Shown here: piece after piece, positions 27,914-62,022 of the stretch
Layout of the letters: every line of letters begins with the position of its first letter
Numbering within the stretch: position 1 is the first letter of the stretch
From: Symbiodinium sp. CCMP2592
Lineage: Eukaryota; Sar; Dinophyceae; Suessiales; Symbiodiniaceae
Assembly (NCBI GenBank): GCA_905221615.1
Contig: CAJNDT010004957.1
Coordinates: 248,001-312,000 of the forward strand
DNA: 64,000 nucleotides
Reading direction: 5' to 3'
The notes under the pieces: generated by a model
What the model saw: the letters and a program-made list of their open reading frames with translations, nothing else
The model's database searches: none
What the model was told of the DNA's origin: nothing
Translations under genes and position numbers: made by a program

Positions 27914-28285
27914 CCACTGACACTGGCAGCTCAGACGATGGTGGCCTGCAAGAGCAGGCAGAAACCAAAATCTGTCTTGACACCCTGACAATGGAAGCAT
28001 TTGACACTCATTCTGTGTGGCAAGTGCAATAACACACCCAATGCGCACCCCTCCATGCCTGCTCAAAGTTGACACTGATTTCCAGCTGGTAGGCCTGACA
28101 TAATGGAAACACGTGACACTCATTCTGTGTGGCCAGTGCAATAACGCACCCAAGACGCACCCCTCCATGCCTGCTCCAAGTTGACACTGATCTCCAAGAC
28201 GAAGGCCTGCCATAGTGGATGCATTTGACACTCATTCTGTGTGGCCAGTACAATAACGCACCCAATACGCACCCCTGCCTGCCTT
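27914..28285 (+). repeat. 112-bp tandem array, left part (three units)
   Basis: The word TGACACTCATTCTGTGTGGC starts at 28,002, 28,114 and 28,226, an exact 112-bp period. The fourth unit is cut at 28,285, where the inner element's terminal repeat begins. The same array continues at 40,800. Confidence 0.9.
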
Positions 28286-28311
28286 CCCAAAGAATCTTCT
28301 TAGGCTGTTAA

Positions 28312-28460
28312 CAGACTATATATCCTAAAATAGACTATTAGTCTATTATAAGATATATAGTCAAAAATAGACTAGGATATAGTCTATTTTAAATAGACTA
28401 TTATAGTCTATTTTAAACTATTGAATAGTCTATTTTAAACTATTACATAGGCTATTTTAG
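28312..28460. repeat. Left subterminal AT-rich repeats of the inner element
   Basis: Repeated TAGTCTATTTTAAA and TAGACTATT words in both orientations. The right end (40,676-40,773) holds the same words, as expected of subterminal transposase-binding repeats. Confidence 0.65.
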
Positions 28461-28708
28461 CCCTTGATTTTCCTCCAGGAGCTCTTGCTTCCTTGAATTC
28501 TTTTCAGGAGCTTATGCTTCCTGACTTAAATCTTGGACTGGATGTTTCAGGAGCTTAAGGCTTCCTGACTTAAATCTTGGACTGGATGCTTCAGGAGCTT
28601 CTGCTTCCTAAGGCGGCTTCTGGCTTATAATTTGCCCAAAACCCCAGATGCAGCACTCCTTTTACTCGCAGTCTCATCCCATGGCTTCCTTTCGAGTGGA
28701 CTTCACTC

Positions 28709-30822
28709 TCAGTGAAACTTTTCATCCCAGAGCTGGCTGGCTTTCGAGTGGGCTTTGCGAGCCCACTCTACGGCCTTCTCTTTCCCCAAGCCGTGGCCAA
28801 GAGCAAGCCTCTTCGCCTTGGCGTAAAATCGAGATGTGTAGTGGTTCCTACTGTCCGTGCTTTTAAACACGGAGTCAGAGATAATAGTGCTGATCGCCTC
28901 CTGGTAGAGCTCCTTCTCCTCGCGGCCGGGCACAGGGGCAGGGTTAACAGACTCCTTCTGCTTCTTGGCAGCTGTGCCGGCTTCTGGATCTTTGGCAGCA
29001 GGCCGCTTCTTCGGCGAGGCTTCTGGAGCTTTGCTCGCAGGCCGTTTCTGGACAGCCGCCTCCTTCTGCTTCTTGGTGAGGGGCTTGGCCGGAGAGGCTG
29101 CCCAGGCATTCTGCAAAGCTTGCTGTGTCGCCCTTTGCATGAAGTCCATGCTTCCAGATGCCCTTGGCATGCAGCCCATGCTGCCAGAAGCGGGGGTATG
29201 GGACACCGGAGGAGTGACAGGTGCAGGTACGACTGCTGCTGCAGGCTCCGTCTCGGCATCCTTCGCTGGCCCGTCCTGGAGTGCAAGTACACCTTTCAGC
29301 GGCACTGTCTCCGATGGCTGCACCATGTCCTCCATTTTGAACTTCGGGTTGATCTGCAAGCAGAGGGCCTGCACCTGTTGAAGTGCCTGCTTGTCGAGTT
29401 TCTTGGGCATCTTTTCCTTGCCGGTGGCAACATCCCGAATCTTGCCGGCCAGCATTCTGAATCTCAGGTTGAAGTACTGCAGCGACGAGTCTTCCCAGCC
29501 TGCAGGGCTTTGAATTTATGGGTTTAGGGGCCGGGTTAGGCACTAGAGTCTTAGGATCCTTAGGCTATACCTATCATGAGATTATAAGCGCCCCCAGCCT
29601 GGCAACTTCTGCTGTGGAGCCTGTAGTACCAGGATGTCCCTCTTGAACAGGCCGAGCAAAGCAGTCTGGAGCAAGGCATGGGGTATCAAGCCATTGGTGC
29701 AGATCTCGAAGATACGGTTCAAGATCGGAGCGAGGAACACGACCTCCTGGATGTGTTTGCCCAGGGCCGTCTTCCATGAGCATTCATCCAGTCCTCTGCA
29801 CAGCATGCCGAGTGTGTTGTGGCCCATCTGCCGCAACCCTTTTTCGACGGCATTTTCAAGGGCAGCTGCAGTCACTGACGGCAGCACCTTCAGCCGCTCG
29901 CCAACTGTCGGCAGTGCCATGGCAGGAGTCCTACAGCTGCAAACTAAAAAAACTGCACGGGAAAAACATACAATATATATACAACAACCATGCATGCGGG
30001 CACATCCTATGGTGTCACCGGATGCCTATAGGAGCTTCTAAGCTACCTTTTTTTTTAGGAGCTGGCGGCTTCCTCGCACATGGGTGGGACCGCCACGTCT
30101 TCACGAGGCGGTCCCGTGCGGATCCAGGACTGACACATCCTGGATTTCTTGGTTGCCTGGCTTCCTGGACCCCATTGGCTTGCGGGGTTCATGGAAGCCT
30201 TTCTGAGTATATGGTGCATTTGTGCCTTCTGTGCCTTTTCCTTGCTTATTGCATTTCTAAAGCGATCGAGTTGGCAGCTTCCTCGCCCTTGGCCTATCTT
30301 AATATCCCTCAGGAGCCTTTGGCTTCCTGGACTACAGCTCCTATAGATTCATGCACTCCTTTTTTCCCTCGCAGCGACTTCGATCCCTAGCATATACACA
30401 TGTGTCATGACACGTGCATTAAATTATAGCATGGAGCCACTACATGGCACTCATGCCCCGCCGTTTTTGCCGGCAGCCAGCTGCTGTAGCTTGAGGCCGA
30501 AGCGGAGGCAAGTCAACAGCCTCAGGGTTCGACGGGCAACACAGGCTTCTTTTTCCCAAGCTCTTTTGGAAACGAACCAGCTGTTGGGCAACACCTCGTT
30601 GAGGAAGGCGGTAGAAAGCCAGGGGAAGTTCACGTGTTGGTAGCCCACCCACCGTTCCCTTTTGCACTTGCGAGCCTCTGGGTCGAGCTCCTCCTCTCGG
30701 GCTTTCTGCAGAGCTGCCTCCACGAGGTCCTTGCCCTCAACGGCTTGGTCGCCCTCGTCTTTCTGCAGAGCTGCCTCCACGAGGTCCTTGACCTCAACGG
30801 CTTGCTCGGCCTCGTCTGCCAT
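28709..30822 (-). CDS. Inner element gene A: uncharacterised protein, multi-exon
   Basis: Exon 1, 30,822 to about 30,460, starts MADEAEQAVEVKDLVEAALQ and contains that 20-residue block twice. Exon 2, about 29,930-29,597, encodes LPTVGERLKVLPSVTAAALE... and looks helical. Exon 3, 29,499-28,709, follows CTGCAG| and encodes WEDSSLQYFNLRFRML, then a Pro/Ala linker with KKRPAAK-type basic clusters, then a conserved-looking end (HYTSRFYAKAKRLA...WARKAHSKASQLW) with its stop at 28,709-28,711. The introns hold the AGGAGC...CTTCCT motif. I do not recognise a catalytic domain. The basic stretches suggest nuclear location. The exon chain is inferred from order and strand; exons 1-2 and 3 could be separate genes. 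Confidence 0.5.
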
Positions 30823-31038
30823 GGCTGTACTACGGAGGCGAGCGGCGAGCTTGAGCTGAAAAACGGCTGCAGCAGATACGACATGCCCTGAAGATCCTAC
30901 AAGGAGGCCGAGGCTTAGATTGCTTCAGAACTGCAGGCGCTCAAAATCTCAGAGGAGCCCGAGGCTTCCTTCAGCAATTAAGGAACGAGGAGCCCGAGGC
31001 TTCCTTCAGCAATTAAGGAACGGTCCCATTTTTTCTCC

Positions 31039-32947
31039 TCAGAGCGGCGGTCCAGGCTGTGCAAGGATCTCTGCCAGTTCGATTGACATGGCATCTGTGT
31101 ACTGCCGCATGAAACGATCCAACGAAGTCAGCATCGTCCGGCTCTTGGTACACATCTTGAGGAGACCCTTGCATTTGGACATATAATCCTCGCCGGAGTA
31201 TGTCCAAGTCAGCTTGGGGGAAAGATGCCTCGCCAGCTGCAGCCCATGCAGAAACCAGTGTGTCTTGAATGTCAACTGGAAGGCCAGATGGCCCTGCTCC
31301 AGAAAGGACTTATTCAAAATCGTCATGCACTGGAAGAGACAAACGGCCGTGAGCATCATCCGATCCGCCACCTCTTTCGAGGGCTTCCAGTCTTCGATGC
31401 CATCTGCCATTTGGTCCAAATCGCGGCTGAAACTCAAAGCCAGGGCAATCTGTTGGTGCTCCTCGTTGTCCTGTTGCAGGTGCTGTTGGCAGATGCTCGC
31501 CAAAGCTGCAATAACGCCCTTAGTTTCTGCTGCCTTGGCCTTCAAGCGAGGGTATCCCTTTCTGCAGTGAATATCCTGTGGGTCAGCCAGGACCATGGTC
31601 TGAGTGATGTAGTTGATGCCATTGCCCTTGTGCTGCCGCCAGTAGTCCTGCAGGGGAGCTGAAGCTGCCTACACACTACAACTTTTATATACCATGTCTC
31701 ACAACAACAGGAGCTTAAGCTGCCTATACCATATCTGAAAACAGCAGGAGCTTAAGCTGCCTATACATATCTGAAAACAGGAGGAGCTTAAGCTAGCCTA
31801 TCTGAAAAAAAGGAAAGTTCACAGCCTTCATCTGCAGCAATACATTGTCCAGGTTTTCCTCTACTCCGCCAGGAAGGATCCTCCAGCAGAGAACCCACAA
31901 CGTTGAGCCAGCCAGCCGCTGGTCGAAGCCGAGGTGCTTGCTGTGCATCCAGTCCGGAATCACACCACTGGGGCTCACAAGGTGTCGCAGGAGAGGGCAG
32001 CAGCTGCGGCGAGGGCAGTGCCATGGATCCACAGGAACCTCCGCCACGTTTTTGTAGTCGAACATATTGTCTTTGCTGATGTTGCAATGCCCGCAAGGGA
32101 AGTTGGAATTCCACCGTGGCAAGTTGTGACTCGTGTTGTACCATTCCAAGTCACCAGTCAGAAAAAGGAGCACCGGGAACAAGTCATTGTTCGTCTTGCA
32201 TTCTTCGAAACATCGTTCAAAGGCCCGAACGACGTGTCCCCAGATGCTGGCCACAGTGTTGCCACAGGAAGACACCACGATCTGCTCAGTCCAAACAGCA
32301 CTTATCAGCACATGGACGAGCTTTGAAGAGGTCTGTGAGGAGAGCAGGCTTCTCCAAGAGATAAAAGCACAAGACCTGTCCTTGCTGTCAATCGGAACTC
32401 CATCGCCGTGCAGGATCAGCGGTACCGCTCTGGATTGGTAGTTCTTGATCTTCTTCACGGGATGGTGCAGGAGTGCAGGGTGCGAGGAGCCGACCTCTCG
32501 CCAAAAGTTCGCTATGTCACCATCGTTCCTGCAGCATAACTCACGGAAGACCATTGGCTGTCGCTGCAGCGACCGAAACACGTCAACAGGGTCCAAAAAC
32601 GGGATCGCAGCCCGGAGAGCTTTCTTGATGGGCACACACACGTTGCTGCTCACAAGAGCAGGCATTTGAGTGTGCCTCAATAGGTCTCTCCGGAGATTTC
32701 CCTGATATAGGCCCCGAGAGCCGAGATTGGCAAGTATGCGAATCTCGGCTTTCACTGGCTCCAATGCATCTTCTTCCACCAGTGCAGCCACCACCTGTAC
32801 TTCTGGCAAAGACATCTTCCCCCAGCCGAATGACCGCAGAAGGTGGGTCGCCAATCGGCTGGGTTCTGGAACTGCTGCCGAAGTTTGTGCAGCACGTTTC
32901 GCAGCTCTTTGTTTGGATCCTCCCCGCTGCATGATGTCCGGATCCAT
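31039..32947 (-). CDS. Inner element gene B: CACTA/Tnp2-like transposase
   Basis: Exon 1, 32,947 to about 31,800, starts MDPDIMQRGGSKQRAAKRAA. Exon 2, about 31,657-31,039, follows CCCCTGCAG| (DYWRQHKGNGINY...). In order: LILHGDGVPIDSKDRS, VLLFLTGDLEWYNTSHNLPR, a CxxC knuckle (FPCGHCNIS), a Cys/His stretch, DWMHSKHLGFDQRLAGS, and in exon 2 KTHWFLHGLQLARHL. The D-G, GDL, CxxC and D-x-MH-x-x-x-LG blocks follow the order seen in Tnp2/Plavaka-type transposases and in the plus-strand gene at 18,807-20,834. The intron is built of about four direct copies of the TATAGGCAGCTTAAGCTCCT unit (coding-strand sense). It is the natural candidate for moving the inner element. Confidence 0.6.
31657..31800 (-). 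repeat. Intron made of about four direct repeats carrying the inner-element motif
   Basis: On the coding strand, TATAGGCAGCTTAAGCTCCT recurs three to four times at roughly 40-bp spacing, separated by GCTGTTTTCAGATATG. The last copy runs straight into the 3' splice site CCCCTGCAG|. Confidence 0.7.
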
Positions 32948-33139
32948 GGCGGCACACATCTCACAGATCTACTGCAAAAAATTCAAGGCTTGGGAGGACT
33001 GCTGAGGATAAACAAATATTGTCTAGCGGCCACAAAACAGGAGCCTCTGGCTTCCTTAATTGTACATTAGCTTCAAGGAGCCTCTGGCTTCCTTATCCTA
33101 CATTATCTTCAAGGAGCCTTCGGCATCCTCATATACGTG

Positions 33140-33460
33140 TGCTCCTCGAAAAAAAAACCCTAAGCCCTATAACCCCTTTGGGTGCCCTGACCCCTTTGTG
33201 GTTTAGAACAGGTATACCCTAAAGACCCTAAGCCCGAACCCTATACCCTAAAGTGCTATTGTGGAAAAACCTTAAAACCTTAAACCCTTACAGACCCTAA
33301 AACCCTAAGGGTTTGGAGGGTTTAGGCTTAGGGGGGTTTAAGGGTTGATGGCTTTCAGGGTTTAGGGTTTGGGGCACTGGACTCTTCAGGGTTCTTTTCA
33401 GGGCAGGCTTAGCGGGTTCAGGGTTTAGGGGGTTACGGTTTAGGGTATATCTTTCTATCT
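33140..33460. repeat. TTTAGGG/CCCTAAA-rich spacer inside the inner element
   Basis: Degenerate telomere-like words on both strands. Similar text continues at 34,800-35,470. No gene is visible. Confidence 0.7.
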
Positions 33461-33463
33461 TAT

Positions 33464-33533
33464 ATATATATATGTGTGTATATATATATATATGAATATA
33501 TATATGAATATATATATATATATATATATATGA

Positions 33534-33574
<41 letters not shown>

Positions 33575-33678
33575 CATATATACATATATACATATATACA
33601 TATATACATATACACATATATACACATACATATACATATACATACATATACATATACATATGCATATACATATGCATC

Positions 33679-33716
<38 letters not shown>

Positions 33717-33727
33717 TATACATATAC

Positions 33728-33771
<44 letters not shown>

Positions 33772-33798
33772 GTATATGTATATGTCAATGTATATGTA

Positions 33799-33829
<31 letters not shown>

Positions 33830-33862
33830 ATGTATATGTATGTATATATATATATATATACA
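33464..33862. repeat. (TA)n/TATACA microsatellite, about 400 bp
   Basis: Near-pure TATATA, CATATA and ATGTATATG repeats. Frames encoding YIYIYI or YMYMYM come only from the repeat. Confidence 0.95.
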
Positions 33863-33865
33863 CGT

Positions 33866-34228
33866 TGGGTGGTGGGTGGTGGGTGGTGGGTGGTGGATAG
33901 CGGGCGGTGGGCGGTGGGTCGTGGATGGTACGTGGCGATGGGCGGTGGGTGGTGGGTGGTGGGTGTGGGTGCCGTGGGTGCTGTGTCGTTGGTGGTTGGT
34001 CGTGGGCGGTGGGTGGTGGCTGGCGGGTGGTGGGCGGTGGGTCGTGGATGGTTGCTCGTGGCGGCGGTGGGTGGCGGGTTTTGGGTGTGGGTGCCGTGGG
34101 TGCTGGGTCGTTGGTGGTTGGTCGTGGGTGCTGGGTGCTGGGTGGTAGTGGTGGGTGCTAGGTGGTGGTGGGTGTTGGGCAATGGGCGGTGGGTCGTGTG
34201 TGGTGTTTGGGTGGTGCTGGCTGGGTGA
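33866..34228 (+). repeat. G-rich (GGTGGGTGGTGG)n tract
   Basis: About 360 bp of GGTGGGT/GGGCGGTG repeats with almost no runs of C on this strand, in two related halves that each contain GGGTGCCGTGGGTGCTG. Many G-runs in short succession could form G-quadruplexes on the plus strand. The Pro/Thr/His-rich minus-strand frame through it is a repeat artefact. Confidence 0.85.
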
Positions 34229-34248
34229 TTTTCCGGTGGTCTTTTTCG

Positions 34249-34800
34249 TCCGGGCACTGAAAAATTCAGTGCCCGGACAGAAAGCGGCACCGGATGAGTT
34301 GGGTTTTGAATCGAAGTTTCATCGAAGTTTCGATGAAACTTCGATTCATGAGTCGAAGTTTCATCGAAACTTCGATCAAACTTCGATTCAGTGAATCGGA
34401 GTTTCATCGAAGTTTCGATTGCTCCGAGTCGGAGTTTGATCGAAACTTCGACTCGTGAGTCGAAGTTTGATCGGAACTTCGACTCATGAGTCGAAGTTCC
34501 GATCAAACTTCGATTCGCAATCGAAACTTCGATGAAACTTCGATTGGGCAGTAGAAGTTTCGATCAAACTTCGACTGCTCGGAATCGAAACTTCGATCAA
34601 ACTTCGACTGCATGAGTCGAAGTTTGATCGAAGTTTCGATGAAACTTCTACTATGTGAATCGAAGTTTCGTCGAAACTTCGATCAAACTTCGACTCCTTC
34701 GGTGGCGCTTTTTTACCGGGCATTGAAAATTTTCAATGCCCCGTGAGAAAAGCACCACCGAAGGAGTCGAAGTTTGATCGAAATTTCGACGAAACTTCGA
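34249..34800. repeat. Palindromic satellite (TCGAAGTTTGATCGAAG-type) bounded by hairpins
   Basis: Opens with a perfect hairpin at 34,249-34,279 (GTCCGGGCACTGAA / TTCAGTGCCCGGAC). From about 34,307 nearly every base belongs to alternating TCGAAGTTT(G/C)ATCG and its reverse complement. A longer imperfect hairpin at about 34,697-34,764 has CCTTCGGTGG and CCACCGAAGG at its ends and GGGCATTGAAAATTTTCAATGCCC in its centre. No gene. Confidence 0.8.
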
Positions 34801-35687
34801 CTCACCTTAAGCCCTACCCTAAACTCGCAAACCAGAAGCCCTGAACACCTTGCTATCCCCAAGCCCGTGAAAACCCTAAACCTAAAAACCTAAACCCCTA
34901 AAACGTCCTTAAACCCTAAAGCCCCTAGCTTAGACCTAAACCAAAATACCTAAGCCGAATACCCTAAACCCGTACAAATAAACCCCTAAACCCACGTTAC
35001 CTCTAAACACCCTCCCACCCAAACCCGAAACCCCCGAATCTCAAACCTAAACCCTTATACCCTAAACCCCTGAACCCACGTTACCCCCAAACCCGAAACC
35101 CTCGAATCTCAAACCCAAAACCCCATACCCTAAACCCCTCAAACCCTAAACCCATGAACAGGCTACATCCCAACTCTAAACCACCGAATCTCAAACCCTA
35201 TACCCTAAACCCCTAAACCCCTGAATCCTGAACACCCGAACATCCCAAATCCAATATCGTGAAAACCCTAAACCCCTATAACCCCAGCCCGCAACCCTCA
35301 ATTATAGCCTAACCCTTTAACTCGAGAAAAGCTGCAACCAAAAACCCTAAACCCGAGTACTCCAGAAAACCCAGACACCTCAACCAAAAAAATCATCTAT
35401 CTCAAAACTTATGGCCCTGCAAACCCTAAAGCCTCAGAGTTTAACTTAAGAAACATCCACCAAACCCGAAGATAAAGTCTTCTTTGGAGGAGCCGAAGGC
35501 TTCCTTTGCAACATACACCTAGGATATATATAATATTCTCTTAGGAGCCTTTGGCTTCCTAAAGCTCACATGCATACATGCACTTCTTTTTCGTCGCAGC
35601 AGCTGCTTCGATCCCCAGAGCAAACATGCACATGTGTCATGACACGTCGATCCTAAAAGACGAATTGTAGAATGGAAACATTCAAAA

Positions 35688-37432
35688 TCAAATGAGGGCA
35701 GTCATGCCCTTGATCAAATCCTGGGCTGCGAGCAGGCCAGTTGCAGCCTTTTGCAACAGCGACCTCAGCTCAGCAAGCGAAAGGTTCTTGAAGAGCTTCG
35801 CTTTCTCGAGATCCGAGTGCAAGGGCATCAAGTCCTCCCAAGCCTTCTGGAGCTGGCCCTTGAGGGTCGTCCACACCGAGCTTTTGCTCAAAGCTGCCGT
35901 CTCCTTTGAAAGCACTTTGGAAACACTGATCCTCGTGGCATTTGCCCACTGCAAGGCTTCCTCCACCTTCGTACTAGCTTCCGCAGTCCAGCTCTCTGCT
36001 CCCGGTTTGTCACACAAAGCCAGAAGGCCACCCTGGAGCTCTGAGCCACATCCAGCAGCACGGTCCGGTTCCAGGCATGGTTGGAAGTTTGCGAAGAAGC
36101 TGTCGAATCCCTCGGCGGCGGAGTCGGTGATGCTCTGGTCGGGCTTCCTGAGCTGATGGGAACAAAACTTAGTATCTATAGCTCATTCAAGCTTTTAAAA
36201 CATAAGCCTCTAAATGCTCCGTAGCTTCGATGTCGACATCCTATTGTTGGTGCCAGTCTCATTGGTGACGACGATCTCTCTGAAGCAGTAGAACAAGGAA
36301 CCATTGTTGTTCACCTCATACACATCCCCGGTGGCCAGAGCTTTCTTGAAAGCTTCCTCCCCTCCCAGCTTGGCCACCATCAGTGCTCTGGGTTTGCCCT
36401 TCACCTTGTCCTTGCCACAAACCTTCTTGTAGAAGGTGCTCAGCTGCTGGAGCACGGCGGACTCGGTGTTCAGCTTGTACATCTGGCCGGCCTTGCCCCC
36501 GGATTTCTTCTCAACCGCACCATTGATGAGCTTCGTCTTGTCGGCCTCAGATGGTTGCACAGCAGGAGCCAAAGGCTACCTCAAGGATCAAAAGCCTATG
36601 GCAATTATAGCAGGAGCCAAAGGCTGCCTCTGACGGTGCCTCCTTTATAGGGCCAAAGCCTAGATATCAAAATGTGGCAAGGCACCCGTGACACTTTCTC
36701 AGAGAGAAACAACTTCTGGATATCGTCCGGCATGGTGCTCAAGTGCTTCGAGAACCACCATGCCTTGTTCTTGTCCCTGCTTTCCCCCTGCCCGGCAGGC
36801 GGCTGGGGCTCGCTGTTGCAAAGCTGCAGGTCGCCCAGCTTCGCCGCTTTCTCACGGTCCTGGTCCGAGCGAGACTTTTTCGCCTTGCTGCTTTCCTCCG
36901 GCGGGCTGCCCGGTCGCTTCTCCGTACCGTTGTCGGGGGGGTTCGGCTCTTCGACCGTGCTTCCCTTGCCCTTGGCCTTGGCTTTGGCCTTGGCTTTGGC
37001 CTTCGCCTTGGCCTTGGCTTGGGGCTTGGTGGCCTTGCTGTCGCTGTCGGCCTTCTCGTCCTGCTCGTGCTCCTGGCTCGACTCCTGCTGCTTCTCCTCC
37101 TTCGCCACGGCCTCGTCGTCCGCCTTCTCGTCCTCGCTGGACTTCTCGGACTTTGCCGCCTTGCCTTTGGCCTTTGCTTTAGGCTCCTCGGCGGCCTTGC
37201 TTTTGGCCTTCGCCTTTGCCTTGGCCTTGGCTTTGGCCTTGGCCTTGGCCTTGGCCTTGGCTTTGGCCTTGGCCTTGGCCTTGGGTGCAGCCTCAACCTC
37301 GCTAGCTTCAGGCTCTTGAGGCTCCGGGACTTCCTGAACTACCTCCACTTCTTGAGTGTCTTCTTGCTGAGTGTCGAGCTCTGGCTCACTACCCTTTCCA
37401 CCGAAGAACACGTCCAAGGCACTCTGGCTCAT
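35688..37432 (-). CDS. Inner element gene C: PIP-box protein with KA-repeat linker, multi-exon
   Basis: Exon 1, 37,432 to about 36,684, starts MSQSALDVFFGGKG. The residues Q-x-x-L-x-x-F-F form a textbook PCNA-interacting (PIP) box right at the N-terminus. An acidic stretch follows, then about 25 Lys-Ala repeats (37,165-37,285), then a Ser/Glu/Lys linker and DKNKAWWFSKHLSTMPDDIQ. Exon 2, about 36,560-36,210, encodes a compact domain (GGKAGQMYKLNTESAVLQQL...YEVNNNGSLFYCFREI). Exon 3, about 36,152-35,688, encodes RKPDQSITDSAAEGFDSFFA and a helical end. The PIP box would tether the protein to the replication clamp (known for the motif; inferred here). The rest is uncharacterised. Motif-bearing introns separate the exons. 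Confidence 0.55.
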
Positions 37433-37888
37433 GGCTTCAAGCGAGGGTGAAACACGTCTTGTCTTGAGCTCCAGGACTGCAGCACGGTATGCAGATGACA
37501 AGGGGCCTGGGCTGACATGGGAGCCTCTAGAGTGCTACAGTAATCCTCGGCCACGGTCAAACTCTAGCTTCAAGCTTCAGGAGCCCAAGGCTTCCTGTTC
37601 TAAACCCTCTGAGGAGCCTGAGGCTTCCTGTCCTAAACCTTCTGAGGAGCCTGAGGCTTCCTGCCCTATTGAAAAAACTGCAAGAAGCTCGCAGGCGGGT
37701 TTAGGGTTTGGGGCTTTAGGGTTTAAGGGTTTAAGGTTTAGGGTGCATATAGTGCTCCTGTTATAATTGCTGCACCTCTACCACTTCAAGGAGCCTGAGG
37801 CTTCCTGCCTTAAGTCACTTACAGTACACAACACGGACACAAAACTTTTTTCTGCAAGAACCGATCGTGCATTATGCTCGCTGCATGG

Positions 37889-38214
37889 TCACACGGCTGG
37901 AGTTCCCCAGCTTTGCGAGGAACCCCATCCACCAGAGGAGCCCCATCCACCGCCGTTCTTGTCACCGTTCGAGCCATCTTTGGGATTCCAGGGGCCCCAT
38001 GTCTGATCGTCTTCCTCTTCTTCATCGTCATCTTCCTCGTCATCCTGGCCCTTGGAGCCAGAAGCACCTGCAGGGGGGTTTACTTGCATGGGCAGGGACA
38101 ACACTCTAAGGAGTTATCTACATATATATATATATAATATATAATATAATATATTATATATAATATACTTATAGGATATATACTTATAGGAAGGAGCCCG
38201 AGGCTGCCTGCTAT

Positions 38215-38255
<41 letters not shown>

Positions 38256-40329: not shown

Positions 40330-40675
40330 GGCTTCGAAGGGCACTAGCTTAAGAGCTTCGAGCACAAAAGCTGCAGATATATGCACATGCATTAAACAAG
40401 CACTCACACTCTACAGGCATGCAAACACTCTAGAGGAGCCTTGGGCTTCCTGTCGATCATTACTCTAGAGGAGCCTTCGGCTTCCTGTTCCTCTCGATCA
40501 TTACTCTAGATCTAGCCTTCGGTTTCCTGTCTCGCTACGAATCCTAGCTCAACCTTAGGAGCCTTTGGCTTCCTGCTGACCCTTTCACATGCCAAGTGAA
40601 GGCACTGATGCAAGCAACTTATTGTGGCCTTGCAGCTCAATGCCAATACGATGGCATTTCAAGACATAGAAAATT

Positions 40676-40773
40676 AGTCTATTTTAGGATATTTACATAT
40701 CCTATAATAGACTATTTAGGCTATTTATAAATAGCCTATATATCCTATAATAGGATAGTATATATCCTATCAA
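40676..40773. repeat. Right subterminal AT-rich repeats of the inner element
   Basis: TAGTCTATTTTAGG, TATCCTATAATAG and their complements, mirroring 28,312-28,460. Confidence 0.65.
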
Positions 40774-51024: not shown

Positions 51025-51049
51025 CGGATCCAAAATTACCTACTGTTGC

Positions 51050-52330
51050 GGAAAAGCTCATTGTCGTATTTTGGCCAAGTGCCTCCCATTAATGTGTTCA
51101 AGGCAGAATTTTGGATCGCGAGACAGGACTTACTCATTATGACGTCTCTGCTTCCCCGCTTGTATTCAATTGGAGCAAACCTGGCAGAGGACTATAAATC
51201 ACAACAGTGCAACCGTGCCAAGAAGGCCTGCTGACCCGCTGGGCATCCGCCGGCGAAAGGGCTTCAACACCTGAGGCAGTTGGCTGCTCCATGCTATTAT
51301 TTTAAGGGACTCAAGAATGACAATTTGAATCAGAATTGCTTGACACTGAAATCCTACTTGTCAAGTCTCAAAGACCCGAAACCCCTCAGCTGTCGAAAAT
51401 CTCCTGGCCCAATGACACTGGGTGTAGATAGAAACAAGCGGCAGCACACCAACGCTCGCAGTGCACACCCACACACAGACTGAGCAAGTGGCACTGTGCG
51501 GTCAGGCTGACCACCTGTGACTAAAATATTAGTGTGCGACTTGGGTGCGAGTTGGGTTTTTGCAAAAAACAACACAGTGATCTGACACTTGACCATGGGT
51601 AATACTTATACTGACTGTTTCGAAGATCTGAGGAACCGAGGGGATGGGACATGAACATGACCTGCCAGTTGCCTGCGATAGATGCCCTGCTAGGCTTCGA
51701 TTGGTACATGCATGCTGCCATGGGGCTCAAGTAAGCCAACATATGCCACTGAGTTTGACTCTATTTGTTATTGCTGCTGGAATCTAAGGCTTGATGCTGA
51801 AGACAACAAAGACAACTAGTAGTTGTGAGCTCTGGCAGCGAATGGGACTTGCCGCACAAAGTGCTACTTAGTGGAATTATTGGAAGATTAACTACTAGCG
51901 GCGAATGGGACATGCCGCGAACAGGAAAGGACTGTGGCTCTCAATTCGGTTTTACACAGGGAAAACTCAGCACAGGGCTATCCACACCAGGTGCTCCAGC
52001 TCGCTACCTGGCAAAAGCTTGCAGGCACCCAGCCAAATGGGGCAAGATAAGACTCTGAATTTCCTGAAACCAGCAACGGCTCCTGAATTATTATATAATT
52101 TAAATTTAATTTAGTGCAATCAGACGGGGCTCTGGCTGACTCATCACTCATCCACAGGCAGATCATCACAGGCCTGTCACAGCAGTGGGTCATGCTTGGC
52201 AATGAAATGCTGACTGATCTTAAATTGATATGACTGTCGTGACGATGGCAGCATTCAGAGCACTGACTGTTTTGACGCTTACTCTGGCAGTCCATCTTGT
52301 CTACTAAAAGGGCACCCCATAGCCCAGTGA
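51050..52330. other. Intron-like stretch without supported coding
   Basis: TGACNCT words and two GCGAATGGGAC(A/T)TGCCGC words (51,838-51,857 and 51,901-51,921), relatives of the 58.7-61.8 kb satellite, lie here. If the two flanking coding parts form one gene, this is a 1.3-kb intron. Confidence 0.5.
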
Positions 52331-52337
52331 CACTCAC

Positions 52338-52983
52338 CTGCTCTCATGTTCTTCACGGTCGTGAGCTTTTTTTCGACTGACACTGCCAAATATTTCTTGC
52401 GGCACTCGTCTTCGTCTTTGACACTGGAACAGGCAAACGAGAATGAGACGAGGCTTCTGACACATCCTGGCAGCTGCTGTCCATGACGCTCAAATCGTTC
52501 CACGATTGACATTGCTGAAGCGATGACACTATAGGCAACAGCATCACCGAATAAGCTTTTCAGCTCAGCAATCTGACTCTCGAGCCTCAACCGCATTGTC
52601 TGGTAAATCCCAGTCGTCGCTACTGGGTGTTCTGACACTGCAGAGGAGGCGCCATCATGACACTGACTTTCAGAAGAGTGTGCTGGCAAAGGCTCTGACG
52701 CTGTCCCACATCGAGGCCCACTCTGCATCCGGGATGTGGTTCTCCCACAAGGTGTCTTTGCTGACTCTGTCATTGCTGTAGCAGACGGACCAGACCATTG
52801 ATATTTGACACTGCCCACAGGCTTGGCATGACCCTCCTGGTCAACTGACACTTTGCGATGCAGTCTACGGCATGGATTCTTCTTGTGTCGCCCACGATGA
52901 CTACTGCGGCAGCCTTCACAGTAGTTATTCGGCTTGCGCCGAAACGTTCTGGCACCGCACAAACGGCAGGCAAACCCAGCCAT
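52338..52983 (-). CDS. Outer element gene G, first exon: Cys-rich zinc-finger-like N-terminus
   Basis: ATG at 52,983. The N-terminus MAGFACRLCGARTFRRKPNN then YCEGCRSSHRGRHKKNPC has CxxC-x(n)-CxxC spacing with basic residues between, as in small zinc fingers. A helical region follows (RLRLESQIAELKSLFGDAVA...). The exon ends AGAGCAG|GTGAGTGTCA. This 5' splice site overlaps a copy of the element's heptamer (AGTGTCA on the coding strand). The next exon on the strand starts near 51,024. Metal-dependent DNA binding is the likely role of the finger (inference). Confidence 0.55.
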
Positions 52984-53342
52984 GACTCTGGCTCTGTAAA
53001 GCAATGATTTCTTATTATCTGAACTTCTCGAAACTGACACTACTGTAATACGACGACTAAGGTACTGACTGGTGACTAGTCATTGAACTTAACTTTGATT
53101 GTCTGGCTGTCATTGCACTATGAACACAGTAGCAATACAATGAGATTTAACAGTTGACCCGATGTGGTTGTTCTGAGCAACTTCCTGTGTTGTCGTCGTT
53201 CTGCGAGCAGGTTTTGCTGACTCTGCTAACGGCCTTCATTGATTGACTGAGCAAAATGACACTGAAAGTGCTGAATGACATGACCACTGGCACAGGACAA
53301 CACTCGCAGGCCCCGCCTCAGGTCTTGCTCCACATCTTCTCG

Positions 53343-53386
53343 AACAAAGGCAAGGCTTATGAGTCCCATAAGCTTTGCCTTTGTTG
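53343..53386. repeat. Hairpin
   Basis: AACAAAGGCAAGGCTTATGAG, TCC, and ATAAGCTTTGCCTTTGTT: arms of about 18 bp with one mismatch. Confidence 0.75.
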
Positions 53387-53583
53387 GAGAAGTTGTGGCA
53401 GGATGATGTTGACACTGTCAGCCTCGGCCATGCATGGAGTGGTGACTACACCCTCGCGTCTCTCTGGCTCTCTTATACAGGCCAAGTATACCTCTAATTC
53501 ACTCTAGCAGCTGCAAGGCAACACTCCATTCCCTCAGCTGTTCCTGGGCTTCCAACGGACGTCTGCCAAATGGCTCGGACGAG

Positions 53584-53642
53584 TGGGTGTCTGGCACATT
53601 CGGCCAAGAGATTCTCATAGCCGAATGTGCCAGACACCTACC
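53584..53642. repeat. Hairpin with 19-bp perfect arms
   Basis: GGTGTCTGGCACATTCGGC and its exact complement GCCGAATGTGCCAGACACC flank a 15-bp loop. Confidence 0.85.
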
Positions 53643-53655
53643 TAGGGGCCAAACT

Positions 53656-53777
<122 letters not shown>

Positions 53778-54132
53778 CAAGCACTTGCAAGGTGACCCTG
53801 CTGCAGACGTTCCTGCCTCTGCCGTTGGCCGGGCCAAGCACCTGCGCAAAGACACATATCGAATCTGAATCCATGTTGTAAATCTTGACTCTGAGAAGTC
53901 CGACAGCGCACGAGACTCCGACACACTGTGGCACATGCCAAAAAAGTGTAAAAGTGTCCAATGTACAATGGTTGACACTAGGAGTGCTCGCTTGTCACCA
54001 GAGGATTCCGTGTGCCAGTGTCAGCCAGGTGACTCTGCAACTCACCAAGTTCAAGAAGTATGACTCTGACACTGATTAAGCATCAGTAGAATCAGAATAG
54101 GAATTTTATTATTTATGGCTGGCTGGCTGACA

Positions 54133-55793
54133 CTACTGCGTTGACGCTGCGTCTTCCTGCAGCATTTCTAGGTCTTGTATGGCTCTGAACCTTGCCCAGC
54201 TGTCGTACCGGCCATATGGCTTTTGCCATTTGGCCTGTAACGCTTGTGTCCTTGGCTGCAAGCCGGTGCAAATGACACTCTCACTGGATCTGCCACTGTA
54301 TGTAAGCATGACACTGACTAACACTCGAGATTGGCATGATGTTTTTGCAAACCAAGCAGCATAATCAGACCTGCACGTACATGACCCTTGCGGCCAAACG
54401 CCAGAAGATCCCTGACTCTGTTTTTGGTCTCCTCGGAGAAGGCGATGTCATCCATCATCTCGTCCCTGAGCCAAGAATCAAACAGAAAGGCAATGACTCT
54501 GGAATCCACATGACAGGAAAATATGCAGCTAGGCCACATGACACTGCGGAAGTCGGTTTCAGTGCGTCTTGACACTGGGTTCGGCCGTGGGAGACGTGGG
54601 TAGTCCACGTTATTTGGGCCCAGACCACGGCCAGCCCCTTTTGGTCGCTGACCCTTTCTGGCTTGGTTCGGATCGGCCTGGGTCGATGACGCTGCTGCAG
54701 CGGCCTGGGACGGGGTAGCTGGCTGACGCTGACGGCTGGGGTAGTTGAAGTCAGTATTGACACTGTCTTCCCACTCGTGTCCCAGGTGTTGCGGGTCGTT
54801 CCTGGGAAAGGATGACGCTTCCCACCAGCGGTTCCATTGCTGGTTCCTCGGGGAGCGCCTGCTCCAGTCGTCCTGACCCTGCTGCGTCTGCTGCTGTGAG
54901 TTGTCCTGACTCTGCTGCTGCTGCTGCCAGCCCCAACCATTGCCTTGACCCTGACCCCAATTCCGCCTGTTGGAGCCTGATCGGTTGCGACGACCCTGTT
55001 GGCCGTGATTCCAAATCTGGTCTTGCTGACCCTGACCCTGGTTCCAGTAGTAGTTGTTGGCGTTGGGGTCATAGTAGTTGCTATTGGCACCAGCTTGACC
55101 CTGGGGCTGCTGCGGCTGCTGCGGCTGTGGCTGGTCTTGCCGCTGTTGACCCTGTGCCTGCTGCGGCTGTGGCTGTTGCTGGTCTTGCTGCTGTGGCATG
55201 GCTTGGCCATCGGTCCGCACCCCAGTCGCCCTGCGGTCAGACGGCTCGTCCGGGGCTTGACTCTGGTCGGCAGGCGCTTCAGTCTCCCGACTCTGCTCCT
55301 CGGAGGGTTGGTCACTGGTGGCAGCTTGACCGTGACCCTGGTCCTGATGGGTCGCGTCAACGGTCTCAGCCTGCTGTTGACCCTCGGGATGCTGTGGACT
55401 CTCGGGCTGCTGTGGACTCTGGGGCTGCTGTTCAGTCTGACTCTGCTGCGGTGCTTCCCACAAACCCGGGGGTGCTTCAGTCTGACTCTGCGGCGGTGCA
55501 TCCCACAAACCCGGTGCAGACTCCGGCTCCTCAGTGACGCTGATCCACTGACCACTGTTGGCCATGGAATCGGGAACCGGAACCTCCCTTTGGCTGACAT
55601 ATCCCAATTGACTCTGAGTCATGTCTTGGATCGTCTCATGATGACTCTGGGGCGGGTAGTGCTGCTGGGTCGCTGACGCATGACTCTGGGTCTGGGAGGC
55701 CTGGTAGGTCCGGGTCCCTGACGCTGCGTCTGGAGGTCTCACCGAGCTGACACTGTCCCCCTGGATCTCCAAGGAGCTGACCGTCTGCCCCAT
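54133..55793 (-). CDS. Outer element gene F: Q/P/W-rich protein
   Basis: Exon 1 is 55,793-54,371, ending GTGCAG|GTCTGA; exon 2 is about 54,318-54,133. The N-terminus MGQTVSSLEIQGDSV starts Met-Gly, compatible with N-myristoylation (inference only). Then come glutamine-rich and proline-rich repeats (APPGLWEAPQQSQTEQQP), an Asn/Gln/Tyr/Trp-rich prion-like stretch (NYYDPNANNYYWNQGQGQQD) and RGRG-like basic text. A folded-looking end follows (CHVDSRVIAFLFDSWLRDEM...). Exon 2 ends PYGRYDSWARFRAIQDLEML. No enzyme domain. Low-complexity composition would allow phase separation or RNA binding; I cannot decide. Heptamers supply many of the S-Q and Q-G-Q steps. Confidence 0.5.
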
Positions 55794-55859
55794 TGACCAC
55801 TGGCAGGGGGCTGCAAATGCAAGACACTGTGCAAATGCATGACACTGTGTATTAATTCA

Positions 55860-57080
55860 GACACTATAATTGCAACGTGAGTGACCCTCGTGCCTGGGAA
55901 GCCATGTCGTCCTCGTAACCTTCCTGACTCTGAGATGTCCGGGAATCCATATTGGCCTGACCCTGACTCTTAGATGTCGGGGAAGCCATATTGGCGGTTT
56001 AACCTTAGTTGCGATCTGACACTGGCAAACCGTGGCAGTTGACTCTGAGCGGCACACATTAAAACCAACTGCAAACAAGTGACTCTCGCAAGTTCTGTTG
56101 AACTGTCTTGATACACCACCCGGACTTGTTTGACTTCTCCTGCTCGCACAAATGGCGAGCCACGTCTGCCCCTGACTCTGGGGAAATGAAGTGCAGGAGG
56201 AAGAAGACCTGACAAGCAGTGTCAGTTGACAAAACTAACAGCACAAGTGACACTCAAACTGTGCATTGCCATGTCTCAGCCACACCTGCACCGCACCACG
56301 GTCACAACCCTCAGCTGACACTTGGTGGTTCGGAGGCAGCAGGGTGAAGGCGCGAGACTGACCCTGAGGTCGCCAGTCGGCCATGAAACAAAAAAGGCGT
56401 TAGCTTGCTCTGTGCCAACAATCTCCTGACACTAATTGACTGAGACAGAGTAGTCGAAAATCACTTAACTCTAACTGCAATGCTGCAAAATATCTGTTTC
56501 TGATGTTCTGGTCGCTGACAACTTCACATGCTCATGTTGACACAGCGAGCCCACGATCTTGCAGAGGATAGCAATTCAATGCAACACATGGCATGACTCC
56601 GCAAGTCTGACAGTCTGACACTGAGCAAAGCAGAAAGGGGCTGGCACCTGCTGCATCTGGCAGGATGACACTGGAATGTGGAAGCCTGGCACACGTTGGG
56701 GCGATAAGATGACAATGAATCACACTACTCTGCAAGCAGCTTCACTGCACTGACCCCTGCTGCAACATGACTCTCATGACCTCCTGGCCTCTCCGCTGCG
56801 GCCATTGTCGATGTGCCTCAGTGCAAAGGCAATCAATGACACTAATAGAAGCAAACATGCACTCGCAGGGACTCACCGAAACACTTTTTTTGACAGTGCC
56901 CACAGTCGGCTCGAAAGGCACTAGAGCTGCGATTCGTCAAAAAGTCTACACTGACACTCCGGCTTCTATAGCTAACGGAGTGCGATGGCATGACCCTGAG
57001 TCATCCGACCATGTGGTGCCTAGATAAAATTGCTAAGCTCAATAAATTAATTAGCTACAAATTAATGACACTGAAGCAAG
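55860..57080. other. Spacer rich in TGACNCT, no supported gene
   Basis: Short frames only. A near-duplicate phrase (GGGAATCCATATTGGC / GGGAAGCCATATTGGC) occurs at about 55,940 and 55,980. Confidence 0.5.
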
Positions 57081-57089
57081 GACTGGCAG

Positions 57090-58203
57090 CTACTTCTTGG
57101 CTGACTCTGGGTTTGCCGTTTGCACAGGAGGCTTTGGGTCGCCTGACACTGTCTTTGCGATAGAAGGAGTCTGGGCTTTGGTGGGCACAACGTTCGCTTT
57201 GCCCGCTGACCCTTTGAGCTTGTCACGCTCTGCTTTGTAGCGGTTGCATTGCTTCTGACTCTCCTCCAACTGCTCTCGCAATTTTATGCGCTGACCCTGC
57301 TCAAAGTCGCGATCTTCCTTCTGCTTTTTCAGTGCGCCTTGACACTCCTTCGGGGCGAGCAGTTTCAGAATCCATGTTATTTTCAGCGTAGTAATTAATA
57401 TATTTGAATTCATTATTATTATAATTAACAATTGCTCATGACACACCGGTCCTCCAGAAAGAGCTTGCACTTCTTATGCTCTGACTGCTCCGCCTCGAGG
57501 CTGTCCTCCAAGCGCTTGACCCTCTTTTTGTGGACTTCCTCCCTCTTGTCCTGTTGTGCCAATGACTCTACCTCCTGCAGGGCGAATTGCTTTGCGTGGT
57601 CATTCTTGAGATCCTTCGGGCAAGCAAAGAACACATGGAGAAGGTTTAACAATATTAAATCTGTATTTGATCAATGGTCAGTTATAAGATAGTAAAGTAG
57701 TTAGTAGTCTAATTTCTAAAACCCTGAGTCTTATGCAGTTGAAACAAGTTGTCCTGAATGACTCTGCTGTGGTGTTCTTCCATCTCAGATTTTTCCTGAC
57801 GCCATCGACGTTCTCGTGACTCTAGCTCCGCTTGGGCTCGGGCCAGCTGTTCCTGTTCAGGAATGAGAAACAAATAATTATTATAATAAAACTTGACAAT
57901 ATTGTATCATGGCACTGATATAGTCTCATTCTTAGTATTAATGATTAGAATTTACAATTCTTATTTCAGATGTCCTGCTGACGCTCGTTCTCCAATTCCA
58001 GTCGGCCCAGCATATTTTGTGCACATCGGTGCATTGACCCTCGCAGTTGGGAGGATGTGCTCTCAGTCCTGCGGGGAATGCAACTTGTGACTGCTGCATT
58101 CCGAGCACTGACACTAAAAACTAAATTTCCATGATCCCTCAATCACAACAGTCCTTTCCCCCTTCTCACCCTTGCTGCCACGTCCACGGAGGCGATTCAC
58201 CAT
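57090..58203 (-). CDS. Outer element gene E: coiled-coil protein, about five exons
   Basis: ATG at 58,203 (MVNRLRGRGSKGEKGERT). Open segments follow at about 58,106-57,970 (ending GRLELENERQQD), about 57,855-57,735 (EQLARAQAELESRERRWRQE), about 57,640-57,435 (EVESLAQQDKREEVHKKRVK) and about 57,360-57,090 (CQGALKKQKEDRDFEQGQRI ... stop). Nearly all of it is heptad-type coiled coil with a basic N-terminus and a Pro/Thr/Lys tail. Introns are short and AT-rich (TTATTATAATTAA text), unlike the surrounding DNA. A structural or dimerisation partner role is likely; no catalytic motif is seen. Exon borders are approximate and some segments have no ATG of their own. Confidence 0.5.
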
Positions 58204-58209
58204 GGCTGT

Positions 58210-58660
58210 GACACTGGTGAGGCTACGATGATCAAGGAGGTCAGGGATAAAGATGACACTGCTGTAGCTTTGGTATATAACGAGTGTGTACGTGTTCAAT
58301 GGCAATGTCAAATGACTCTGCCCTGGGCCCAAAGCCAATCTGTCCATGCCAACCAATGACACTCAAGCCATGTGCAATCATCGGCCATCTTAACTTGCAG
58401 TGACTCTGGTGGGAAGCACTCAGCGCCCTGCCATCAAGAAGATTGGAGGGCAAGCCGCTGACTCTCAGCGGCTTGCTCTCCAGTCTGCCTGTGACTCTGG
58501 CTGTGGAGGGGTCTGGCCTCAGACGTCATGCATCTGACACTCAGCAGCCATGACACTCCACAGTCACTTGCGCAAGCATGCTGGCTGTGACACTGCTGCA
58601 CTCCACTGTTACCGCTGACTGTCCCTGGGCAATGGATGACAATGACCACTGCCCCTCCTG
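58210..58660. other. Short spacer upstream of gene E
   Basis: TGACNCT-rich, no convincing exon. A promoter cannot be recognised; dinoflagellate promoters lack a canonical TATA box. Confidence 0.4.
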
Positions 58661-61600
58661 ACTCTGCTACTTAGGCAGCGTATGGTTCTTGCCGCATGAC
58701 TCTCAAATACCACTCTCAAGCCATTGGCCATGACACTGCCACGGCGAATTTGTCATGCCGCAACACCGTAACACTGCACCCTCAGGCGACAACCTTGACT
58801 CTGCAATCGCTCAGCGTCCTGCCATCGCCTGACACTGGAAGGTCTGGCCTCAGTGATGCAATCTGACACATGACACTGGCAAAAAACTGCTCTTGCAAGT
58901 CACTGCTATGACACCCTGCCGACATACCTATGGCATGTGACTCTAGCAGATTTTTAAAGTCAGCACCTTGAATCAGAACATGACTCTCTTCCTAGCTCTG
59001 GTTCATGCCGCATGACTCTCAGATGCTACCCTCAGACCATGACGATGCCAGCAGGGAATGAGTCATGCCGCAGCCAAATGACACTACACTCTGAAGCGAT
59101 GACCCTGACTGCAATCGCCCAATGTCCTGCCATCGCTTGACACTGGAAGGTCGGGCCTCGGTGATGCAATGTGATATATTATGTGACACTGACAAAAACT
59201 GCTCTTGCAAGTCACTGCCATGACACTCTGCCGACCTACCTATGGCATCTGACTCTAGCAGATAGATGATAAGAACATGACTCTCATCCTAGCTCTCGGC
59301 GGCGAATGGTCCATGCCGCATGACTCTTTTAGATGCTACCCTCAGACCATGACACTGCTAGCGGCGAATGGGTCATGCCGCAACAACATGACACTACACC
59401 CTGGATGCCTCTGTGCTCTCAGGCGCTGACCCTGACTGCAATCGCTCGGTGTCCTGCCATCGCTTGACACTGGAAGGTCTGGCCTCAGTGATGCAATGTG
59501 ATACATGTGACACTCACAAAACTGCTCTTGCAAGGCACTGCTATGACACTCTGCCGGCCTACCTATGGCATGTGACTCTAGCAGATTAATAGACGATAAT
59601 TTAATTGAACAATATGACTCTCATCCTAGCTCTCGGCAGCGAATGGTCCATGCCGCATGACTCTCTCTTAGATGCTACACTCAAACCCTGACACTGCTAG
59701 CGGCGAATGGGTCATGCCGCAACAAAATGACACTGCACTCTGAAGCGATGATGACCCTGACTGCAATCGCCCAGTGCCCTGCCATCGCTTGACACTGGAA
59801 GGTCGGGCCTCGGTGATGCAATGTGATACATGTGACACTGATAATACAACTCTTGCAAGTCAGTGCTATGACACTCAGCCGACCTACCTATGGCATCTGA
59901 CTCTAGCAGATAATAATAGACGATAAGAACATGACTCTCATCCTAGCTCTCGGCGGCGAATGGTCCATGCCGCATGACTCTCTTAGATTTTGCCCTCAAA
60001 CCATGACACTGCTAGCGGCGAATTCGGTCATGCCGCAACAACATGACACTACACCCTGGATGCCTCTGTGCTCTCAGGCGCTGACCCTGACTGCAATCGC
60101 TCGGTGTCCTGCCATCGCTTGACACTGGAAGGTCTGGCCTCAGTGATGCAATGTGATACATGTGACACTCACAAAACTGCTCTTGCAAGTCACTGCTATG
60201 ACACTCTGCCGGCCTACCTATGGCACGTGACTCTAGCAGATTAATAGACGATAATTGAACAATATGACTCTCATCCTAGCTCTCGGCAGCGAATGGTCCA
60301 TGCCGCATGACTCTCTCTTAGATGCTACACTCAAACCCTGACACTGCTAGCGGCGAATGGGTCATGCCGCAACCAAATGACACTACACTCTGAAGCGATG
60401 ACCCTGACTGCAATCGCCCAATGTCCTGCCATCGCTTGACACTGGAAGGTCGGGCCTCGGTGATGCAATGTGATATATTATGTGACACTGACAAAAACTG
60501 CTCTTGCAAGTCACTGCCATGACACTCTGCCGACCTACCTATGGCATCTGACTCTAGCAGATAGATGATAAGAACATGACTCTCATCCTAGCTCTCGGCG
60601 GCGAATGGTCCATGCCGCATGACTCTTTTAGATGCTACCCTCAGACCATGACACTGCTAGCGGCGAATGGGTCATGCCGCAACAACATGACACTACGCCC
60701 TGGATGCCTCTGTGCTCTCAGGCGCTGACCCTGACTGCAATCGCTCGGTGTCCTGCCATCGCTTGACACTGGAATGTCTGGCCTCAGTGATGCAATGTGA
60801 TGCATGTGACACTCACAAACTGCTCTTGCAAGTCACTGCTGTGACACTCTTGGCATGTGACTCTAGCAGCTTAGATGATGATTGAACATGACTCTCATCC
60901 TAGCTCTCGGCGGCGAATGGTCCATGCCGCATGACTCTCTCTTAGATGCTACACTCAAACCCTGACACTGCTAGTGGCGAATGGGTCATGCCGCAACAAA
61001 ATGACACTGCACTCTGAAGCGATGACCCCGACTGCTATCGCCCAGTGTCCTGCCATCGCTTGACACTGGAAGGTCGGGCCTCGGTGATGCAATGTGTTTA
61101 ATTATTATATTAAATTGAAATTATTATTGTTATATGTGACACTGACAAAAACTGCTCTTGCAAGTCACTGCTATGACACTCTGCCGACCTACCTATGGCA
61201 TCATTTATTGAATAATATTTATTTATTATAATTAAATTTAAATATTAAACTAAATATGTCATTTAATATTAAAATAGACGACGACGAAAATAATCATTGA
61301 ACAACATGACTCTCATCCTAGCTCTCGGCGGCGAATGGTCCATGCCGCATGACTCTTTCTTAGATTAGATGCTACACTCAAACCCTGACACTGCTAGCGG
61401 CGAATGGGTCATGCCGCACAAAATGACACTGCACTCCGGATGCATCTGCGCTCTCAGGCGATGACCCTGACTGCAATCGCTCAGTGTCCTGCCATCGCTT
61501 GACACTGGAAGGTCTGGCCTCGGTGATGCAATGTGGTACCTGACACTGACAAACTGCTCTTGCAAGTCACTGCTATGACACTCTGCCGACCTACCTATGG

Positions 61601-61765
61601 CATCTGACTCTAGCAGACGATAAGAACATGACTCTCATCCTAGCTCTCGGCGGCGAATGGTCCATGCCGCATGACTCTCTCTTAGATGCTACCCTCAGAC
61701 CCTGACCCTGCTAGCGGCGAATGGGTCTTGCCGCAGCGGCGAATGGGTTTGCCGCAAACACCAGC
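58660..61765 (+). repeat. Tandem satellite of about ten 295-420 bp units
   Basis: The phrase CATCCTAGCTCTCGGCGGCG begins units near 59,291, 59,629, 59,944, 60,275, 60,590, 60,901, 61,320 and 61,641, with two more diverged units at about 58,664 and 58,996; typical spacing is 311-338 bp. Each unit has two hairpin-like words (GCGGCGAATGGTCCATGCCGC type) and seven or more TGACNCT words, all on the plus strand. The unit before 61,320 carries an AT-rich insertion (61,096-61,300). Confidence 0.9.
61096..61300. repeat. AT-rich insertion(s) within a satellite unit
   Basis: Two stretches (61,096-61,135 and 61,200-61,285) of TTAATTATTATATTAAA-type text split one unit and explain its 419-bp length. Composition resembles the short AT-rich introns of gene E. 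Confidence 0.6.
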
Positions 61766-61841
61766 ATGACTCTGCACTCTAGGGCTCCACGCTGACACTC
61801 GAGGTGATCCACGGTGAGGGCGATGTTCACATGAGAAGCTT

Positions 61842-61900
61842 GCTGACACTCGAAGCGAATTGTCAGTGGTAAATTACCACTGACAATTCGTTTCGAGTGG
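61842..61900. repeat. Hairpin with about 25-bp arms near the right end of the outer element
   Basis: CACTCGAAGCGAATTGTCAG... pairs with ...CTGACAATTCGTTTCGAGTG around the loop AAT, with one mismatch. Confidence 0.85.
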
Positions 61901-62022
61901 CAGCTTGAGCTAACGTGGCTTATGGTTGTTTGACACTACAAACTTATGGTTGTTTGACACTACAAACCATACAATCAATCGTTGTATACCAAGACCCAGC
62001 AAAACCACAGAAATTAAAAACA

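Follow-up and report, generated by a model that had tools for sequence, protein, structure and literature searches.

A strand-polar heptamer runs through the exons and satellites of a giant Symbiodinium transposon and is a candidate recognition word for an element-encoded protein

Analysis of a 64,000-nucleotide stretch of the 1.1-Gb genome of Symbiodinium sp. CCMP2592 (contig CAJNDT010004957.1, positions 248,001 to 312,000; hereafter the window) identified a large DNA transposon bounded by terminal inverted repeats (TIRs), one strand of which is densely occupied by the heptamer TGACNCT, protein-coding exons included. In these exons the bias towards the word exceeds that given by codon and amino-acid null models. 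On balance, TGACNCT is probably recognized by a protein that the element itself encodes, the likeliest candidate being the N-terminal zinc finger of its transposase or a partner of it.

A first-pass annotation, made from the sequence alone, had described a dense and strand-polar word starting near 27,914 and ending near 61,960. Recounting gave 361 TGACNCT against 12 AGNGTCA over the whole window, with the first element copy at 27,918 and the last at 61,955, and the two local counts of the annotation were reproduced exactly (10 and one in 43,981-44,640; 15 and none in 58,681-59,280). All four variants of N do occur, as had been stated (A 175, T 107, C 50 and G 24 of the 356 words from 27,918 on, including two inside an inner element described below). 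The element parts of the window hold 354 words against 6 reversed in 21,673 bases. This density does not recur everywhere: 5 and 4 were counted in the left flank (27,752 bases), 0 and 2 in the right flank (1,955 bases), and 3 and 7 in 20 arbitrary 1.5-kb stretches of the genome (28,628 bases), the last giving a background of 0.17 TGACNCT per kb per strand. A second copy, G000:C2190 (hereafter C2190), contains 501 words against 9 reversed in 32,073 bp, or about one per 60 bases and about 90 times the background, while its flanks (2.4 kb) have 0 and 1. The annotation had placed the word, over about 21 kb, in one presumed element; the single element is borne out by TIRs and target site duplications (TSDs), and the extent was underestimated. 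An assembly gap truncates the window copy, and the longer copy reaches 32 kb. The parts of the element in the window are as follows.

27755..62041, plus strand: outer transposon, whole, with ends set by comparison with C2190; broken by the inner element and by an assembly gap
27755..28285, plus strand: left terminal part with 112-bp satellite units; at least 40 genome matches to the left end, at 93-100% identity
28286..40799, plus strand: inner, separate TIR element, inserted in the left satellite of the outer element; 26-bp perfect TIR CCCAAAGAATCTTCTTAGGCTGTTAA
41582..42543, plus strand: 112-bp satellite, most units with two TGACACT
42544..42643, no strand: assembly gap (N); the window lacks the C2190 sequence at this place, which includes a DNA methyltransferase gene
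58200..61967, plus strand: right subterminal array, with the highest word density (20-28 words per kb); lies upstream of the long open reading frames (ORFs)

The TIRs of the outer transposon are imperfect, 5'-CTGGGATGGGCTTTGG at the left and CCGAAAGCACAGCCCAG-3' at the right, with the consensus CTGGG(A/C)TG(G/T)GCTTT from the comparison of the window copy with C2190. The window copy is flanked on both sides by TATA, in a TA-rich site where 2 bp fits too, and C2190 by TTTA; the TSD length is uncertain from these two copies alone, since both sites lie in repeats. Ten further insertion sites were fetched and all ten displayed 4-bp TSDs, nine by script and one (C449, AATG) by reading the letters: TACA, TCTT, TAAT, AATG, TCTA, TGTA, TATA, ACAA, TGAA and TATT. 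One of them, C5036, sits in a TA repeat where lengths of 2-10 bp fit. The piggyBac and Kolobok target site is TTAA, and membership in these groups was rejected, none of the ten TSDs being TTAA. The word-bearing stretch is one TIR transposon with 4-bp TSDs.

The family of the outer transposon is high-copy and recent. Its main transposase exon has at least 58 genome matches, 41 of them full length and 38 of these without a stop, and its right end at least 40, covering 192-196 of 196 bases at 99-100% identity. Over a 5.3-kb stretch compared among 29 other copies, no more than three substitutions (gaps excluded) separate 344 of 406 pairs, and the window copy differs from these 29 by 37-49; each of the 29 has 71-74 words on one strand and at most one on the other. 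No purifying selection on the words was seen between recent copies. Two intervals, G000:C2702:472244-515351 and G000:C1591:116413-158421, span about 42-43 kb between a left and a right end and contain two transposase exon matches each, which reads as tandem, nested or internally duplicated copies. Both copies read at length have assembly gaps inside the transposon: the window copy lacks, at 42,544-42,643, much of the left half present in C2190, and C2190 itself has a gap of 100 N (locus L043). Other parts of the assembly may contain collapsed or misjoined copies of the family.

The word was further characterized in the 22.6-kb non-satellite core of C2190, where it is the most frequent single-gap heptamer (316 against 7 reversed); the 18 one-mismatch words occur there only 2-21 times each. 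No sequence is shared beside the words, except for a G directly after them in 51-57% of cases. Spacings below 25 bp are avoided and those of 35-59 bp preferred relative to a jitter null, the latter being the commonest class (median 53 bp, mean 72 bp). Helical phasing is absent from the absolute site positions of the core; neighbour spacing had a weak phase at 10.5 (0.096 against 0.061 expected), which was not taken as evidence.

Seven long ORFs of the window carry the word, which reads AGNGTCA on their coding strand. Sites present and sites expected under a codon null, in which the non-word codons of each ORF were resampled 500 times, are given for each.

42647..43914, minus strand: ORF, 26 sites, 2.4 expected; relative P0011 at 47%
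43863..45341, minus strand: ORF, 28 sites, 4.3 expected; the C2190 DNA methyltransferase exons lie downstream, past a gap
45357..46016, minus strand: ORF, 10 sites, 1.3 expected
47716..48654, minus strand: probable C-terminal transposase exon, 14 sites, 1.9 expected; resembles the C-terminal part of P0002 by eye
48709..51039, minus strand: main transposase exon (777 aa), 43 sites, 5.2 expected; probable CCHH zinc finger and RNase-H-like fold
52282..53079, minus strand: ORF with a Cys-rich basic N-terminal part, 15 sites, 1.8 expected; a zinc finger is possible on inspection by eye, and Pfam gave no match
54321..55856, minus strand: Q-rich ORF, 29 sites, 4.7 expected

The exon counts are not reproduced by codon choice: 165 words are present against 21.5 expected, all seven ORFs lie above the largest of their 500 resamplings, and a simpler codon shuffle left the picture unchanged. 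The reversed orientation stands at its null (1 against 1.8), and all three frames are used (47, 57 and 61 words). The bias also reaches the proteins, with 229 word-compatible tripeptides against 92 after amino-acid shuffling, although two of the seven ORFs were not above the largest of 300 shuffles in this test. In nine of ten relatives, identity to homologues is less frequent at residues under words than at other residues. Between 42,644 and 58,200, the seven ORFs (8,959 bases) account for 163 words and the remaining 6,598 bases for 67.

Hermes was the best match of the main transposase exon in VIA-align, the one method behind this likeness, since Pfam and Foldseek gave none: Pfam recognized a transposase family in none of ten ORFs and no BED domain in the transposase, and Foldseek returned no significant match for it. 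A sequence search of the PDB with the transposase profile found nothing either (best E 0.26). In an alignment of 11 sequences, C199, C202, H246 and H252 of the probable zinc finger are nearly invariant.

Two further families were found in the same genome with P0003 as query: family 2 (C1180) and family 3 (C5049, C225 and C2985, of which C5049 was the sequence read). P0003 itself belongs to family 2, with a 99-100% match on C1180. Family 1, represented by pieces of C2190, has a single short DNA match of 99 bp to the other two, and transposase identity among the three is 33-49% over aligned codons. The 26 kb fetched for family 2 contain 177 TGACNCT and 9 reversed copies; in 26 kb of family 3, TGACNCT stands at 103 against 6 and GACACTG at 114 against 2, while TGACTCT, present 101 times in the family-1 core, occurs once. 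The word of family 3 is narrowed to GACACTG. Coverage spans at least 23 kb in both families, and their four transposase ORFs exceed the AGNGTCA codon null (19, 12, 10 and 11 against 1.7, 1.1, 2.0 and 2.4), each lying above the largest of 500 resamplings. In all three families the orientation is fixed relative to the transposase exons (exons minus, word plus). Avoidance of short spacing is present in family 2 and not clear in family 3, where sequence like the family-1 right TIR ends near 481,345, 60 bp past the last word. At homologous positions (scored as AGNGTC), 7 of 37 family-1 sites are shared with family 2 and 1 of 38 with family 3, and none of 23 family-2 sites with family 3. The seven exceed chance, so that some sites must be inherited; since families 2 and 3 carry the word mostly at other positions, it persists while its sites turn over.

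A survey of 19 proteins, scored from protein sequence, looked for the footprint of AGNGTCA among 4,096 words. It ranked first in P0004 and P0011, second in P0001 and P0003, fourth in P0002, then 19 (P0016), 50 (P0007), 88 (P0017), 183 (P0012) and 291 (P0013), and 423 or lower in P0005, P0006, P0008, P0009, P0010, P0014, P0015, P0018 and P0019. Much of the footprint of P0001-P0010 falls at columns that the window protein shares; elsewhere z was 3.1 for P0004, 2.0 for P0003, 1.8 for P0001, 0.7 for P0005 and P0007, 0.5 for P0002, and zero or less for the other four. The survey is no more than suggestive of a protein-level footprint in relatives. In P0002, a transposase relative from Symbiodinium natans, the best footprint word was AGNGTGA (TCACNCT on the other strand; z 6.1), above AGNGTCA, and a one-letter shift of the word is possible there. 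The more distant P0006 matched family-1 copies only, among the candidates scored in the window genome (36 of 597).

Searching the genome with a spaced word pair gave 388 and 313 matches against 55 and 60 for controls, and eight loci (L001-L008) were cut out. This route to other loci was rejected: L002, L006, L007 and L008 match the window only outside the outer element (left flank, inner element), the six loci compared with C2190 (L001-L003, L006-L008) have no match to it, and what was read by eye of L002 and L007 consists of simple tandem repeats. A search of phage records with the satellite gave no match.

That TGACNCT might be a binding site for an element-encoded protein, as first proposed, is the best-supported candidate reading, although the binder itself is inferred. 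An element-encoded reader is favoured because the word stays while positions, DNA and proteins turn over, and because it narrows in one lineage, has sharp edges, avoids short spacing and stops near the element ends. The element would be under selection along its full length, exons too, to present sites in a single orientation, at a commonest spacing of 35-59 bp along the body. The end arrays would promote transpososome assembly, the role of subterminal repeats in hAT elements, and the body sites may allow the protein to coat the 32-kb element, shielding it from host silencing and marking it as self, as VANC proteins do on VANDALs. Selection as the cause, the binder, a double-stranded DNA target and the anti-silencing or assembly role are all inferred here.

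An RNA target is the alternative that survives best, though we consider it unlikely. Transcripts would carry AGNGUCA for an element-encoded RNA-binding protein, acting in export, protection from RNA interference or particle packaging. Polarity, the fixed orientation to genes in all three families, the exon excess (family-1 exons being denser in words than the rest) and the avoidance of short spacing with no clear helical phase lean to RNA. What leans to DNA is the presence of the word upstream of the long ORFs and in both terminal satellites, where hAT transposases bind similar words. The outermost words lie about 90 bp short of the right end and about 160 bp from the left, and both satellites are filled with them, so that nearly the whole element would need to be transcribed. 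Moreover, TGACNCT on the coding strand carries a stop codon in one frame, which by itself favours the orientation found in exons.

The word could also be the target of methylation by an element-encoded C5 methyltransferase or its partner, the element writing its own methylation pattern. C2190 does carry a gene resembling a C5 cytosine DNA methyltransferase (L043:133-1849; G000:C2190:223633-225349), absent from the window copy; FENV and LAGN are conserved in this gene. PF00145 was detected in two of its exons at E 0.0011 and 0.033, both under Pfam's own cut-off, and in six of seven relatives (P0013 at E 1.8e-12); against the PDB, an exon weakly matched a chain named DNA repair protein Rad8 (E 0.051). 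Yet word cytosines display no C-to-T decay (2 of 9 substitutions), TGATNCT and TGACNTT are not in excess, and an asymmetric heptamer is unlike CG sites, which makes this explanation improbable.

A functionless origin, in which gene conversion, slippage or a directed mutator seeded the words, has in its favour that the 112-bp and right-end satellites do multiply them through duplication, and copying from satellite units had been suggested by the first-pass annotation. It is disfavoured because the words share no flanks beyond the 51-57% G, fall in all three frames and occupy mostly other positions in two families with dissimilar DNA; amino-acid bending and the scarcity of one-mismatch words also speak against it, and we give it very little credence. 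A role in guiding translocating or replicating machinery in one direction, as Chi and KOPS have in bacteria, would agree with strict polarity over 32 kb and is scarcely credible at about 90 times the background, those words being far less dense.

VANDALs are MULEs, whose TSDs are 9 bp long, and those of hAT elements are 8 bp; the present element duplicates 4 bp, at all ten fetched sites, and has a putatively Hermes-like transposase. It shares with VANDALs a dense, family-specific word in a single orientation; in VANDALs an element protein binds such a word and removes host methylation. In the parts consulted of reports on Arabidopsis VANDAL21 and VANDAL6 with their VANC anti-silencing proteins (PMC5735166, PMC10398659), high word density is likewise limited to the element and words differ among related families, but they are mainly noncoding and often in tandem repeats. 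Here, 163 of the 230 words in 42,644-58,200 lie in the seven ORFs, and words occupy exons in all frames and sequence outside tandem repeats, over 23-32 kb. With Hermes, Ac, Tag1 and Herves, as described in the portions seen of PMC10368747 and PMC3143072, the element has in common a putative Hermes-like RNase-H core, a probable zinc finger before it and short words near the ends, the Tag1 word TGACCC resembling TGACNCT; hAT end requirements are given there as about 100-220 bp, whereas the present word is element-wide. Selfish elements carrying a C5-methyltransferase are on record from the same genus, in the part seen of PMC5890265, as LINE and DIRS retrotransposons with DNMT genes; the element described here is a TIR DNA transposon. 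No report of the TGACNCT word or of this element was found among the titles and abstract openings listed from the open-licence literature and, as far as these searches go, a word running through exons is new.

The inner element (28286..40799) had been described as almost lacking TGACNCT, with a single word seen near 36,690; it is indeed nearly free of the word, and two were found, at 36,689 and 40,577. It is a second element with a polar word of its own, the near-palindromic 18-bp AGGAGCYNNNNGCTTCCT, all 27 copies of which (at most one mismatch) are on the plus strand, against 0.09 expected, and 26 of which lie outside the eight long ORFs listed. The hairpin of AGGAGCYNNNNGCTTCCT, which has a single bulged base, would likewise fit recognition as RNA.

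A broader view, which we hold tentatively and with slightly more doubt than belief, is that a class of giant transposons is written in an overlapping second code that extends into their proteins: a polar, element-wide address word would be read along its full length by an element-encoded factor, word and reader would coevolve (families 1 and 2 with TGACNCT, family 3 with GACACTG and perhaps the S. natans relative with TCACNCT), and even amino-acid choice would serve the address. Three families in one genome, one of them with a narrowed word, offer a ready test of such coevolution. If true, a DNA or RNA recognition word would be selected for strongly enough to alter both codons and amino acids in genes of a 32-kb element, which would be a direct case of two codes overlapping. 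Transposon self-recognition and anti-silencing would then become testable in dinoflagellates, a group in which chromatin biology is poorly understood.
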